Source: Cohaesibacter sp. ES.047 (GTDB lineage Bacteria > Pseudomonadota > Alphaproteobacteria > Rhizobiales > Cohaesibacteraceae). Taken from it: a stretch of DNA of 64,000 nt. Within the stretch, counting starts at the first letter, position 1. Each line of letters begins with the position of its first letter. Under the pieces are notes generated by a model. It was not told where the DNA came from. It saw only the letters and a program-made list of their open reading frames with translations, and made no database searches. Location: positions 2,204,501 to 2,268,500 of the forward strand of contig NZ_LT907844.1 in NCBI RefSeq assembly GCF_900215505.1, read 5' to 3'. This document shows positions 13,142 through 59,336 of the stretch, piece after piece. The translations under genes were made by a program, and so were the position numbers.

Positions 13142-13660
13142 TCAGCTTGCTTTCTTGGCGCGGCGGCGCTCGGAGCTCGGCTGATAGGCAACCTCTGCAT
13201 GATATTTGCAGTAAGGGGTGCCTGCATCGGATTTATGTCCGCAGAAGTGGAAATCACCATCACCGGGATCGCCGATCGGCCATTTGCACGTGTTTTCCGT
13301 CAGCGTCAGGATCGAAGCGCGCTTGGAAATGGGAACCACGACAGCATCCACGTCCTGCTTTTTATGGGCTTTCGGTTGCGGTGCCATTTGCGGCTTTGTA
13401 TCCGCCTTCAGCGCCGTTGCTCCGACAGTGGTCGTTGTGCCGCTGTTCGGCCGGCTGGCTCTCGGGGCCTGCGTTTTTGGGCGACGAGCCCGTGGGGGTG
13501 TCGTTGTGGTCTTTGCCCGACCAGATAGACCCAGACGATGGACCTTACCGATCACGGCATTGCGTGTTACGCCGCCAAGTTCCGCTGCAACCTGACTGGC
13601 ACTCAGGCCTTCCGACCAGAGTTTCTTAAGAAGTTCGACTCGTTCGTCAGTCCAAGACAT
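13142..13660 (-). CDS. gcrA: Cell-cycle regulator GcrA
   Basis: A 172-residue GcrA, which binds RNA polymerase sigma-70 and stimulates promoters containing CcrM-methylated GANTC sites. The N-terminal helix-turn-helix (about residues 1-45) is the diagnostic MSWTDERVELLKKLW...AAELGGVTRNAVIGKVHRLGLSGR. A low-complexity Thr/Pro/Arg linker follows, then the C-terminal CKWPIGDPGDGDFHFCGHKSDAGTPYCKYH domain with four Cys and His, which contacts sigma-70 region 2. GGAGGC seven bases before the start at 13660 supports it. Upstream are a 16-bp palindrome, a CtrA-type half-site, GANTC sites and a DnaA box, suggesting cell-cycle control. It is divergent from argD. Confidence 0.95.
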   Translation of the reverse strand: MSWTDERVELLKKLWSEGLSASQVAAELGGVTRNAVIGKVHRLGLSGRAKTTTTPPRARRPKTQAPRASRPNSGTTTTVGATALKADTKPQMAPQPKAHKKQDVDAVVVPISKRASILTLTENTCKWPIGDPGDGDFHFCGHKSDAGTPYCKYHAEVAYQPSSERRRAKKAS

Positions 13661-13774: not shown

Positions 13775-13801
13775 TAGTAGTTAATAATTTGTAAACTACT
13801 A
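13775..13801. repeat. Inverted repeat with 8-bp arms
   Basis: TAGTAGTT (13775-13782) and AACTACTA (13794-13801) are perfectly complementary around an 11-base AT-rich loop. No T-run follows, so it is not an ordinary terminator. Confidence 0.45.
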
Positions 13802-13934
13802 TATCCAGTGACGTCGTCGCAATACAGCGTTAGGAATGAATTAACCCTTTTCCCCAGAAAACCGAATCAGAGGATGTCCAAAATTTTTTCAGCAATAGAA
13901 AATTGCATTTCCGCTCTCATGCCTGTTGAGTTGT

Positions 13935-13943
13935 TGTGGATAA
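13935..13943 (-). promoter_or_regulatory. Perfect DnaA box
   Basis: TGTGGATAA on plus is TTATCCACA on minus, the exact DnaA-box consensus, 275 bases upstream of gcrA. TTTGGATAA near 14091 differs by one base. DnaA is known to activate gcrA in Caulobacter; here the link is inferred from position. Confidence 0.5.
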
Positions 13944-14213
13944 GTTGTGGGCAAGCGTTATGATACCAGTATGAAGACCGGCGCCTGGTTCGAGAGCACG
14001 GATGCCAGAGCAGCATGTGCGGACTCTCTGATGATGCGTTGATCACTCTCTGCGACGGTGAGTGGCACGACAATGATCAACCTATTGCCTTTGGATAAAG
14101 GCTTCCACGCAGTAAGTGCATACTTCGCTAAGGCATTCAATTCATGATTTCACGGACTGTTTATAAATTCGCCTCATCGCTTCGCTATTAAATCGCAATA
14201 TTTTCGCGCTTAT

Positions 14214-14230
14214 CACAATATAATATTGTG
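14214..14230. promoter_or_regulatory. 17-bp perfect palindrome overlapping a TATAAT hexamer
   Basis: CACAATAT and ATATTGTG flank a central A. The plus-strand TATAAT at 14219-14224 lies inside it, so a bound dimer would block RNA polymerase. The -35 at 17-bp spacing is poor. The binding protein is unknown. Confidence 0.5.
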
Positions 14231-14322
14231 GAGTAACTCATTTAAAGCAGATTATTTTCTCTTCAAATGGCGCATTCAGATTGACAAACCGACTTCGGTC
14301 CGGCAAAAGAAGACCTTCGCTG

Positions 14323-14346
14323 GCCGCCGATGGGGCGGCTTTTTTT
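14323..14346 (+). terminator. Strong intrinsic terminator without an annotated gene upstream
   Basis: GCCGCC (14323-14328) pairs with GGCGGC (14334-14339) around a five-base loop, followed at once by seven T (14340-14346). It points along plus, but no protein gene precedes it on that strand for about 660 bases. It therefore ends either a small RNA or a prematurely terminated argD leader. Confidence 0.75.
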
Positions 14347-14507
14347 GTTGCTTTTCCGCCGAAAAGCCGACGGTGACGATCGGTGGAGAAGAGCCTGTCG
14401 ATACCTGCCTGAAACGCCTTTCCGGTTCGATCTAGAAAGCGTGTCAATCACGGGCGGGAGTTTCGGTGAAAACAGGGGACCGGAATCTTGGGACGAGGGT
14501 GAATAAA

Positions 14508-15701
14508 ATGACACAATCTTCGCTGTTTGCCACATATGCACGTGCTGATCTGAAGTTCGAAAAGGGCGAAGGCGCTTGGCTGACAACGCAAGATAACCGA
14601 CGCTTCCTGGACTTTGCTGCAGGCATTGCCGTCAACAGCCTTGGCCATGCGCACCCCCATCTGGTGGATGCGCTCAAGGCTCAGGCGGAGAAGCTGTGGC
14701 ATGTCTCCAACCTATATGACATTCCCGGGCAGCAGCGTCTGGGTGAACGGCTCTGCGCAGCGACTTTCGCCGATAAGGTGTTTTTCACGAACTCGGGAGC
14801 CGAGGCTCTCGAATGCGCGGTAAAGACCGCCCGGCGCTACCATTACGGCAAGGGCAACGTGGATAAAACCACGATCATCACATTTGATGGGGCGTTTCAC
14901 GGCCGCACGCTGGCAATGATCGCGGCCGGTGGACAGGAAAAGTATCTTGAGGGCTTTGGGGAAAAGGCCCCCGGCTTCGTCAATCTGCCCGCTCCGGATA
15001 TCGATTTGGTGAAGTCGGCAGTAGGGGAAACCACAGCTGCCATCCTCATCGAACCGATCCAGGGAGAGGGCGGAATTCGCGAAATTGCGCCATCTTTTCT
15101 CCAAGCACTTAGAAGCTTGTGCGATGAATTGGACATCCTGTTAATTTATGATGAGGTTCAGACCGGTGTTGGTCGGACGGGATACCTGTTCGCCCATCAG
15201 GAATATGGCATCGAACCGGACATCATGGCCATCGCCAAGGGTATTGGCGGCGGCTTTCCGATGGGGGCCTGCATGGCCCGCGAAGAGGTCGCTCAGGCCA
15301 TGGTTCCTGGCACACACGGCTCTACCTATGGTGGCAATCCGCTGGCCATGGCCGTCGGCAATGCCGTTCTTGATGTCGTTTTGGAAGAAGGGTTCCTCGA
15401 ACGCGTTCGCGATATCAGCCTCGTGCTGAAGCAGCGTCTGGCAGAAATTCGGGATGCCCATTCTGATATCTTGACCGAAATCAGGGGACGCGGTTTGTTG
15501 CTCGGACTCAAGCTGACCGTCCCTCCTGCCGAGCTTCTGGCCGCATGCCGTGGCGAAGGACTGCTCGCGGTTCCGGCTGGTGACAATGTGCTGCGATTGG
15601 CACCGCCGCTGATCATCGGCCAAGAAGAAATAGATTTTGCAATGAATAGTCTGGACAAAGCGCTCGCAAAAGTGTCCGCTAACCAGAAAGACAATCATTA
15701 G
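14508..15701 (+). CDS. argD: Acetylornithine aminotransferase
   Basis: A 397-residue class-III PLP-dependent aminotransferase that converts N-acetylglutamate semialdehyde to acetylornithine in arginine synthesis, and often does the succinyldiaminopimelate step of lysine synthesis as well. Visible: [17 protein letters not shown] (phosphate-binding), [32 protein letters not shown], and the PLP-lysine in [14 protein letters not shown], then [11 protein letters not shown]. Start at ATG 14508 is preferred over GTG 14466, because homologues begin just before [10 protein letters not shown]. argF follows 20 bp later. A terminator 160 bases upstream may attenuate expression. Confidence 0.95.
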
Positions 15702-15721: not shown

Positions 15722-16657
15722 ATGTCTAACGATCCTATTCGCCATTTTTTGGATTTGGAACAACTGGACGCCACGACGCTCAAGACGATCATGGCGACCG
15801 CACATGAAATCAAGACCAAGCGCAAGGTGGAACGCAAGACCGATCTGCTTGCCGATCAGGTCGTCGCGCTCGTCTTTGACAAGCCGTCTACACGGACCCG
15901 CGTCTCGTTCGATGTCGGGATCCGCGAGCTGGGTGGTGAGTCCTTGATGCTGACCGGGGCCGAAATGCAGCTGGGCCGCGGGGAGAGCATCCCGGATACG
16001 GCGCGCGTTTTGTCCCGTTTTGTCGATTGCATCATGATCCGGATGCTGGATAACGAGGCGGTTGAGGAACTGGCAAAATATGCCTCCGTTCCCGTGATCA
16101 ACGGTTTGACCTATTTCTCCCATCCCTGCCAGATCATGGCGGACGTGATGACCTATGAGGAACATCGCGGCTCGCTTGAAGGCAAGGTCGTGACCTGGGT
16201 TGGCGACTACAACAATGTGCTTGTGTCCTGGTTGCAGGCTGCCGAGAAATTTGATTTCACCATGCGTGTGGCTGTGCCGGACGAGCTGATGACCGACTTC
16301 GAGGTGATCAATCGCCTGCGCGATCGTGGTGTCAAGATCGAGTTCTGCGACACCGCAGAAGACGCTGCAGACCAGTCTGACCTGATCATCACTGACACAT
16401 GGGTCTCGATGGGCGATGAAGATGCCGAACATCGACACAATCTCTTGAAACCCTATCAGGTCAACACCAGATTGATGGCTCTGGCCAAGGATGACGCCCT
16501 GTTCATGCACTGCCTGCCTGCCCATCGCGGCGAGGAAGTGACGGACGAGGTGATCGACGGGCCGCAGTCGGTGGTCTTCGACGAGGCCGAGAACCGGCTA
16601 CACGCACAAAAGGGCATTATGGTCTGGTGCTTCAACAAGGCCTTGGGTGACAGCTGA
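15722..16657 (+). CDS. argF: Ornithine carbamoyltransferase
   Basis: A 311-residue OTCase that makes citrulline from ornithine and carbamoyl phosphate. The carbamoyl-phosphate loop [10 protein letters not shown], the [11 protein letters not shown] motif, the ornithine-binding DTWVSMGDE (an SMG loop) and the catalytic [11 protein letters not shown] loop are all intact. ATG 15722 is chosen over an in-frame TTG three codons upstream; AGGGGG lies ahead of it. It forms an operon with argD and is followed by hslO, an arrangement common in rhizobial genomes. Confidence 0.96.
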
Positions 16658-16808: not shown

Positions 16809-17804
16809 ATGACCGAACAAATGCCAAGCCTTGCTGAGATGGATCGCGTTCTTCCCTTTCAGGTCGACAGACTGGATGTAAGAGGGCGCGTGGTTCATCT
16901 CAAGGATTCCGTCTCCAGCATCATCCAGCGCCATGACTATCCCGATGCGGTCAACCGGTTGCTCGCCGAAGCCATTGCTCTGACGACCCTGCTCGGCTCA
17001 TCCCTCAAGTTCGAGGGCAAGCTCATTTTGCAGGTTCAGTCACAAGGAGCGGTGAACATGCTGGTGGTTGATTTTCAGGCACCCGATGCCATCCGTGCCT
17101 ATGTCCGCTTTGACGAGGAGGCGCTTGCCGCGCTGATCGCCAAGGGGGAGACCAAGCCCGAGCAGCTGCTGGGTGAGGGGCATCTGGTGATGACCATCGA
17201 TCAGGGCCAGTATATGAACCGCTATCAGGGGGTTGTTGTGCTCGACGGCAAGAGTCTGGAGGAGGCAGCTGACAGCTACTTCCTACAGTCAGAGCAGTTG
17301 CCGACACGCGTGCGCCTTGCTGCCACCGAGATGGTGTCTCGGCAAGAGGGCGAAAACCCGAGGAGTGAATGGCTCGTCGGCGGTCTGCTGGTGCAGTATC
17401 TGCCGCATTCCTCCCAAGACATTCCCCATCGTGATCTGCATCCCGGTGACCATCCCGATCCGGATATGCAGGGCATCCTTCACGTCACCGAGGCGGACGC
17501 ATGGCGTGAGTGTGAGGCGCTTGTCTCGACCCTGACAGACCAAGAATTGACCGATCCGGCGGTGTCTGCAGAGACGCTGCTTTACCGGCTGTTTCACGAG
17601 AACGGCCCGCGGGTCTTTGATGCCACGCCCGTGGTCGATCAATGCACCTGCAGCCGCGAGCGCATCAGCGCCATGATGAGCAATTTCTCGGATGAGGAGC
17701 TCGAAGACCTGCTGGTCGATGGCAAGATTGAAGTGACATGCGAATTCTGCAGCACGCGCTATGAATTCGACCCGCAAGAGAAGAAAGGCGCCAGCGGAGC
17801 CTGA
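16809..17804 (+). CDS. hslO: Redox-regulated chaperone Hsp33
   Basis: A 331-residue Hsp33, a cytoplasmic holdase activated by oxidation when its zinc is lost. The N-terminal folding domain (LPFQVDRLDVRGRVVHL ... VNRLLAEAIALTTLLGSSLKFEGKLILQVQSQG) is followed by a linker and the C-terminal redox switch. There CTCSRERISAMM supplies C-x-C and CEFCSTRYEFD supplies C-x2-C, so all four zinc-binding Cys are present. No clear sigma-32 promoter is visible directly before it. It probably shares transcripts with argDF or uses its own promoter in the 150-bp gap. Confidence 0.95.
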   Translation: MTEQMPSLAEMDRVLPFQVDRLDVRGRVVHLKDSVSSIIQRHDYPDAVNRLLAEAIALTTLLGSSLKFEGKLILQVQSQGAVNMLVVDFQAPDAIRAYVRFDEEALAALIAKGETKPEQLLGEGHLVMTIDQGQYMNRYQGVVVLDGKSLEEAADSYFLQSEQLPTRVRLAATEMVSRQEGENPRSEWLVGGLLVQYLPHSSQDIPHRDLHPGDHPDPDMQGILHVTEADAWRECEALVSTLTDQELTDPAVSAETLLYRLFHENGPRVFDATPVVDQCTCSRERISAMMSNFSDEELEDLLVDGKIEVTCEFCSTRYEFDPQEKKGASGA

Positions 17805-58367: not shown

Positions 58368-59336
58368 ATGATGGGCTTTGAACTCAATGATGTGTTCGCC
58401 GTGGTGACCGCGCTTGCCGTGATTGCGTCGATCATCGCTGCCGCCATGCCTTTCATGGAAGGGGATAGCCTCAATAACCGTATGAAGGCAGTTGCATCGG
58501 AGCGCGAAAAAATTCGAAAACGCGAGCGAGCTGCCCTCAGTGAAGGACGTGGTAACGGTCGGATTTCTTTGCGTGAAGAGCCCAAGCTGTTGGTCATGAA
58601 CATCGTCGACCGGTTCAAGATGCGGGATGCTTTCTCGGACAAGGGCACGAGGATCATGCTCAAGCAGGCTGGATTTCGCTCAGAAAACCACCTGATGACT
58701 TTTACGTTCTCACGCATCGTGGGTCCAATCATCGGTCTGGCGGTCGCGCTGTTCTATATCTTCGTGGTGATCAAACCAGACTACCCGACAATGGTCCGGT
58801 TGTTTATCTCGGTGTTGTTTGCCTATGCCTGCTATTACGCGCCGCTCCTGTATCTCAAGAACCGGATCGCCAAGCGTCAGAAATCCATCAATCAGGCTTG
58901 GCCGGATGCGCTGGATCTTCTGCTCATCTGCGTCGAGTCGGGCATGACGGCGGAGACCGGCTTTCAGAAGGTATCCAAGGAAATCGGCACTGCCTCTGTT
59001 GAGCTGGCCGAGGAATTGACGCTCCTCACAGCCGAGCTCTCCTATTTGCAGGATCGCCGCATGGCCTATGAAAATATCGGTCGGCGAACCGGGATTGAAA
59101 GTGTGCGAGCGGTGATGACGTCGTTGATTCAGGCCGAGCGCTACGGCACGCCTCTAGGGGATGCCATCCGCGTGATGGCTGAAGAGAACCGCGCCGAGCG
59201 CATGAGCGCAGCGGAGAAAAAGGCCGCCGCCCTGCCGCCCAAACTCACAGTGCCGATGATCCTGTTCTTCCTGCCGGCGATTTTCATCGTCGTGCTGGGA
59301 CCGGTGGCCGTGCAGTATTTCACCGGCCACTTCTAG
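58368..59336 (+). CDS. tadC: Flp pilus inner-membrane platform protein TadC
   Basis: A 322-residue partner of TadB with the same plan: N-terminal helix (VFAVVTALAVIASIIAAAM), two helices near residues 120-160, then the T2SSF domain (WPDALDLLLICVESGMTAETGFQKVSKEIG ... LIQAERYGTPLGDAIRVMAEENRAERMSAAEKKAA) and a final helix pair. It lies 66 bp after tadB and ends the plus-strand pilus operon, convergent with tadD. Confidence 0.95.
   Translation: MMGFELNDVFAVVTALAVIASIIAAAMPFMEGDSLNNRMKAVASEREKIRKRERAALSEGRGNGRISLREEPKLLVMNIVDRFKMRDAFSDKGTRIMLKQAGFRSENHLMTFTFSRIVGPIIGLAVALFYIFVVIKPDYPTMVRLFISVLFAYACYYAPLLYLKNRIAKRQKSINQAWPDALDLLLICVESGMTAETGFQKVSKEIGTASVELAEELTLLTAELSYLQDRRMAYENIGRRTGIESVRAVMTSLIQAERYGTPLGDAIRVMAEENRAERMSAAEKKAAALPPKLTVPMILFFLPAIFIVVLGPVAVQYFTGHF

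Follow-up and report, generated by a model that had tools for sequence, protein, structure and literature searches.

A putative promoter-proximal terminator ahead of argD in Cohaesibacter and across the Hyphomicrobiales

The gcrA-argD intergenic region

The window, meaning the whole 64,000-nucleotide stretch analyzed here, belongs to a genome of 5.1 Mb in one contig and contains an 847-bp intergenic region between the divergent gcrA and argD-argF-hslO genes. On the minus strand, gcrA (13142-13660) encodes the GcrA cell-cycle regulator, as indicated by a Pfam GcrA match above the cut-off (6.3e-60); the NCBIfam GcrA model also matches (6.2e-54), but under that model's curated cut-off. The plus strand carries argD (14508-15701), encoding acetylornithine transaminase (NCBIfam PRK01278, 1.6e-188; TIGR00707, 8.2e-137), argF (15722-16657), encoding ornithine carbamoyltransferase (NCBIfam TIGR00658, 3.4e-110), and hslO (16809-17804), encoding the Hsp33 chaperone (NCBIfam PRK01402, 2e-136), all above the respective cut-offs. 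Co-transcription of hslO with argD-argF is assumed. Near gcrA (13780-13860 and 13930-13955), the motifs TTTTCCCCAGA and GTAAACTACTATAT recur by eye in many loci of the order, and the same area holds TGTGGATAA, which by eye we take to be a DnaA-box-like site.

The first gene 3' of the feature under study is argD, which is preceded by a GC-rich stem-loop leading directly into a U-tract, the arrangement of an intrinsic terminator. The earlier note had placed a strong terminator at 14323-14346, with no close protein gene on the plus strand 5' of it, and both observations are borne out: gcrA runs leftwards from 13660, argD begins at 14508, and the sequence reads GCCGCC-GATGG-GGCGGC-T7, with arms at 14323-14328 and 14334-14339, a loop at 14329-14333 and a plus-strand T-run at 14340-14346. 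The first T can pair with G14322, giving the stem-loop GGCCGCC-GATGG-GGCGGCT (14322-14340, plus strand) that is supported by hairpin scan, conservation, pairing and folding. The 34-nt RNA spanning 14313-14346 folds into the terminator hairpin at -14.6 kcal/mol (z -2.0); should transcripts in Cohaesibacter also start further upstream, the longer RNA (14231-14350) folds otherwise, and the A-rich -10 region engages its U-tract in an extended stem.

This -10 region is part of a putative plus-strand promoter (14281-14309) that lies between a palindrome, described below, and the terminator, and that was absent from the earlier note. Its -35 element, TTGACA (14281-14286), does not vary among the 14 sequences of the genus alignment, and a 17-bp spacer separates it from a putative -10 element, CAAAAG (14304-14309), which reads CAATAG or AATAGT in many relatives and was weak enough for a simple promoter scan to miss the promoter. 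Judged from the -10 element only, argD transcription would start at about 14312-14317. The stem begins about 5-11 nt after this predicted start, and the terminated RNA would measure ~30-35 nt here, as opposed to the 110 nt proposed earlier.

The genus alignment (14 loci) contains three conserved blocks in front of argD: block A coincides with the palindrome, block B comprises promoter and hairpin, and block C is located at the ribosome site. In block B, TTGACA is followed 17-18 bp on by a -10-like hexamer, then the hairpin, then the T-run.

The perfect 17-bp palindrome CACAATATAATATTGTG (14214-14230), with TATAAT inside it at 14219-14224, is present exactly as previously described. Perfect palindromes with arms of at least 8 number four in the window (two odd, two even) and average 2.2 over 20 shuffles, and one of the even ones also falls within the gcrA-argD intergenic region. 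Shuffles of the 847-bp region yielded an odd palindrome in 19 of 2000 cases and any palindrome in 60 of 2000; against these shuffles, the 17-bp palindrome is only mildly unusual. An odd palindrome (arms of at least 7, last 340 bp before argD) occurs in 1 of the 18 genus loci, which rules it out as a conserved operator or promoter, and the palindrome-covered promoter proposed earlier gives way to an order-wide conserved promoter ~65 bp downstream. Most genus relatives carry the non-palindromic TATAAAATTTTGTGGATT at this site. The conserved block A extends to about 14259 and reads, in many relatives, TATAAAATTTTGTGGATT, 11 bases and AGCATAAAAT; within 14216-14259, 13 of the 14 aligned genus loci have TTGTGG followed 17 bp on, at constant spacing, by a CATAAAAT-like hexamer. 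Block A is perhaps a second promoter, in which case a start there might yield an RNA of ~80 nt in the genus, or perhaps a degenerate form of what we take to be a DnaA-box-like site.

The rest of the argD leader (14347-14507, plus strand) varies in length and sequence across the alignment and ends in block C (14475-14500), where GGRGACC-N5-CTTGGGACRAGG stands just before argD in all 18 genus loci. This block holds TTG-GGA-CGA-GGR (CAA once in place of CGA), after which, by eye, one of the two following codons is a stop; it may be an element of the ribosome site or a mini-ORF that includes an Arg codon. As a leader peptide, the mini-ORF was rejected, being 3' of the terminator and seen in the genus only; an extension of the argD frame through block C was also rejected, as the frame is broken in locus L003, which is one base shorter. 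In Rhizobiaceae leaders, by eye, the U-tract is often succeeded by another small stem-loop, such as CCGGACC...GGAGTCCGG (L049, L062, L070, L097 and others).

Conservation and specificity of the promoter-hairpin arrangement

The arrangement was scored in 198 loci with a strict test that demanded a promoter plus a terminator whose stem lies between -4 and +45 of the predicted start. It was found before argD in 18/18 genus loci, 98/112 other Hyphomicrobiales and 14/68 other Alphaproteobacteria, counts that come from related, unevenly sampled and hence non-independent loci, many of the Rhizobiaceae being drawn from the best 80 of 584. L031, a duplicate of L017, was removed, and other possible duplicates between collections still stand in these counts; 11 of the 61 relative genomes went unscored, as did 5 of the 74 others in which a match occurred. 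Shuffled sequences passed in 0/180, 10/1120 and 4/680 cases for the three groups, respectively; on the gcrA side of these regions, 0/107 passed. Any terminator within 300 bp, with or without a promoter, was seen in 18/18, 103/112 and 28/68 loci and on the gcrA side in 5/107. A terminator lies between gene and promoter, the latter recognized by consensus only, in 130/198 scored loci, as expected of an attenuator.

A second, T-blind test picked the hairpin near TTGAC by energy alone and then scored it for a dG of -10 or lower and at least 4 T of 8. Among loci with TTGAC, 13/18 in the genus, 97/108 in other Hyphomicrobiales and 14/57 in other Alphaproteobacteria passed, compared with 1.4%, 1.4% and 1.6% of the respective shuffles. 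Stems of dG -10 or lower, taken alone, were present in 13/18, 101/108 and 25/57 loci and in 4%, 8% and 9% of shuffles.

By reading, the order promoter, hairpin, T-run was recognized in nearly all Hyphomicrobiales argD loci inspected, including Rhizobium, Sinorhizobium, Phyllobacterium, Mesorhizobium, Stappia and Aurantimonas. Most Rhizobiaceae loci have a stem that starts no more than 1-2 bases from the predicted start. Of 108 rows, 94 place it at most 12 nt past that point, and wrong automatic choices account for four of the remaining 14; in Aurantimonas-like loci and a few more it lies at +20 to +38. In the 130 loci, a set partly selected for T, positions 2-3 after the stem are T in 92-95% of cases, compared with 22% in the remaining leader, and the 8 positions preceding the stem are A in 5-25% of cases in the same partly T-selected set.

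The strict test failed in 14/112 other Hyphomicrobiales loci, four of which have no TTGAC within 300 bp, and in 54/68 loci of other Alphaproteobacteria. The failing Hyphomicrobiales loci are L027, L039, L045, L061, L069, L084, L094, L096, L121, L181, L185, L189, L193 and L200. For instance, the 300-bp limit cut off an otherwise visible promoter or hairpin in L045 and L096; L121, L185 and L189 show by eye a hairpin with a T-run in the absence of TTGAC; and L039, L069 and L084 have a hairpin with a poor U-tract (3 T of 8). Outside the Alphaproteobacteria, where 51 genomes had an argD match, none of the 12 loci read by eye showed the arrangement. Conservation separates the two features on which the earlier note had built its case: the terminator is kept across the order, and the palindrome in a single one of the 18 genus loci.

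The helix was evaluated on alignment A1, which comprises 50 Hyphomicrobiales loci out of 97 listed; the list omitted nine loci in which over 16 nt separate stem and start, and the 50/50 TTGAC of A1 is by construction, as TTGAC was the selection criterion. A seven-pair helix is paired in 91.4% of cells, with 18 cells changed on both sides, a level reached in 0 of 500 shuffles, and sliding the helix partners gave 36-60% pairing. However, the outermost pair, open in 24 of 48 sequences, accounts for 12 of the 18 double changes, the core is dominated by GCCGCC/GGCGGC, and the RNAalifold covariation term is -0.17; compensatory changes therefore lend modest support to the proposed helix. Among the 130 loci there are 88 distinct hairpins, and at the same place the stems of loci beyond the order differ markedly.

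A model of promoter, hairpin and tail (R1) was used to search for further copies. For its rows, the stem was set by hand in L004, L076, L092 and L094 and L061 was omitted, the automatic choices being wrong there. In the genome of the window, argD (E 1.9e-5) is the sole match with E < 1; the next has E 2.45 and is partial, and a second copy was rejected, since the four further matches are all partial with E > 2. At E of at most 0.5, 61 relative genomes gave 46 matches, of which 43 are full length and 3 are hairpin-only matches elsewhere. All 43 adjoin an argD match, as compared by eye, and they come from 42 genomes, 23 of them with their own loci outside the model; at the same threshold with stricter filters, 18 of the 61 genomes had no match and G023 a partial one only. 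Full-length R1 matches are confined to argD in the genomes searched.

A looser scan of 864 kb of the same genome, covering 1965 TTGAC sites, printed 36 loose promoter-plus-terminator matches, and by eye only argD among these joins TTGACA, a dG of -10 or lower and at least 5 T of 7. Stronger hairpins, with 6 T of 7 and at most 20 nt from the predicted start, occur at two sites on contig G000:C1, one near 58761 (minus strand) and one near 2774054 (plus strand); at these sites the sixth base differs, reading TTGACC and TTGACG, respectively, and they may be ordinary gene-end terminators.

Proposed attenuation without a leader peptide and its alternatives

We consider the feature to be a promoter-proximal intrinsic terminator, that is, an attenuator of argD-argF-hslO that operates without a leader peptide, and assign this reading a probability of about 0.68. 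RNA polymerase would start at the TTGACA promoter and make the GC-rich hairpin and U-tract within ~30-35 nt; part of the polymerases would stop at the U-tract and release a tiny RNA, and the others would read through into argD. The start site, termination in the cell and regulated read-through of argD are inferred. Read-through would be the way in which argD is reached because in 19/130 loci the aligned start codon lies at most 40 nt after the stem, a gap with scarcely enough space for a further promoter; the distance ranges from 17 nt to more than 200 nt. The earlier note had allowed for attenuation of argDF as an alternative, and this part of it stands, together with its strong terminator lacking a leader peptide; its promoter at the palindrome and its ~110-nt small RNA are not supported.

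The position of the stem limits how such an attenuator could be controlled. No clustered Arg codons precede the terminator in transcripts from the TTGACA promoter. Most lineages have the stem begin ~12 nt or less past the predicted start, too close to leave space 5' of it for a leader peptide, an aptamer or an antiterminator; the earlier note likewise saw no evident leader peptide with clustered Arg codons. For transcripts from this promoter, a stem at about +1 excludes leader-peptide, T-box and riboswitch control by geometry. Rfam covariance models gave no match at the gathering score in the window, and the four hits at E of at most 5 were far below it, at chance level. Since nothing upstream in the RNA can compete with the stem, control, if any, would have to act on the polymerase or the hairpin itself, and candidates include start-site choice, nucleotide supply during early synthesis, an elongation factor, and an RNA-binding protein or chaperone.

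The hairpin could alternatively be a 5'-terminal stem-loop that shields argD mRNA from decay, or a U-rich landing site for Hfq or S1, without terminating transcription. Such a role, which we regard as unlikely, would suit the stem position of most Rhizobiaceae loci, no more than 1-2 bases from the predicted start, and the few loci that retain the hairpin with a weak U-tract. Protection, however, requires no U-tract directly 3' of the stem and on that side only, and the T-blind choice still found such tracts behind strong stems in 97/108 Hyphomicrobiales loci. The 17 to over 200 nt between stem and start codon also argue against a translation enhancer.

The trans-acting small RNA gene proposed earlier, with argD served by other transcripts, appears very unlikely. 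It would account for a terminator without a close upstream gene on its strand, and the TTGTGG and CATAAAAT-like hexamers of block A could be the promoter of an ~80-nt RNA. Yet the scarcity of room for another argD promoter 3' of the terminator in those 19 loci stands against it, as does a released RNA that in most Rhizobiaceae loci would be little beyond hairpin and U-tail. The 88 distinct hairpins speak against base pairing in trans, and the Rfam search recovered no family. The regulated RNA of ~110 nt is thus not supported, given a conserved promoter ~65 bp further down, a drifting hairpin and full-length R1 matches at argD only. A reading by eye for a conserved unpaired seed showed no sequence shared between families outside hairpin and U-tract.

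There is only a very slim chance that the inverted repeat is an operator bound as DNA by a repressor. In most Rhizobiaceae loci it does overlap the predicted +1 (e.g., GCCGCC-N4-GGCGGC), a classical operator position, but the loop ranges from 3 to 15 nt across loci (counts of 0-2 are an artefact of pairing letters within loops), its distance to the predicted start varies from about -4 to +38, some arm changes are compensated and the T-run lies on one side of the hairpin only. The pattern of stem, loop and T-run fits an intrinsic terminator better than a DNA operator. Equally remote is a guard against transcripts entering from upstream, without regulatory meaning for argD: the upstream gene reads towards argD in many loci outside the Hyphomicrobiales (ABC-type permease-like by eye) and gcrA reads the same way as argD in L021, but gcrA points away in 108 of the 109 loci holding both genes, and argD's own transcripts meet the terminator too, since it is located 3' of their promoter.

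Possible control at initiation and relation to known systems

A rather improbable but specific version places the attenuator's decision at initiation: completeness of the hairpin's 5' arm, and with it the outcome of termination or read-through, would depend on which nucleotide the transcript starts with or on slippage at the initial pyrimidines. Start choice or slippage would be set by nucleotide supply, e.g., of UTP or CTP, nucleotides made from the carbamoyl phosphate that ArgF also uses. A conserved pyrimidine stretch (about GCYTTYC) is seen at the predicted argD start of many loci outside the Hyphomicrobiales (L112-L180). In 57 loci of other Alphaproteobacteria, T occupies positions 8 and 9 after the -10 element in 75% and 70% of cases, and position 8 is T in 94% of the 18 genus loci; the corresponding values at positions 8-9 are 25% and 11% in the Hyphomicrobiales set, which lacks the stretch, and 19% and 29% in 31 control sites, mostly unproven promoters. 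The stretch gives a hint towards initiation control, the control comparison being a weak one. Nucleotide-sensing start-site switching or reiterative transcription operates at pyrC, codBA, upp and pyrBI. Control at these genes can act within the first nucleotides, and the argD start outside the Rhizobiaceae carries the pyrimidine stretch; their sequences differ from the argD start region. If true, an initiation-stage attenuator would represent leader-free attenuation kept through much of the Alphaproteobacteria.

The promoter-proximal attenuator that we favor also invites comparison with the leader-peptide attenuators of the amino-acid operons trp, his, ilv and leu. In both, an intrinsic terminator ahead of an amino-acid operon would decide read-through; unlike those systems, the argD stem at most 12 nt from the predicted start (94/108 rows) leaves no place for a leader peptide or upstream antiterminator. 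UpsM, an RNA that derives from the 5' UTR of the dcw cluster (PMC5089854), is similar in that use of a Rho-independent terminator in an alphaproteobacterial 5' UTR frees a non-coding RNA. According to that report, its leader measures 268 nt and is confined to Rhodobacteraceae, whereas the argD hairpin lies almost at +1, spans the order and some loci beyond, and has a predicted product of ~25-35 nt. Similarly, 3'-end sequencing in E. coli mapped premature termination in 5' UTRs and presents 3' ends inside them as a regulatory layer (PMC7815308); that work concerns E. coli, and no mention of argD is indexed for it. Among the papers found in searches of largely open-access literature, titles and abstract beginnings describe neither a terminator or attenuator at argD in Alphaproteobacteria nor control of such kind for arginine genes of this class.

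A terminator at about the first transcribed bases would provide a simple and testable form of post-initiation control that needs no leader peptide or known riboswitch. It adjoins the gene of the cell-cycle regulator GcrA, and it raises the question of how polymerase may be stopped or released within ~30 nt.
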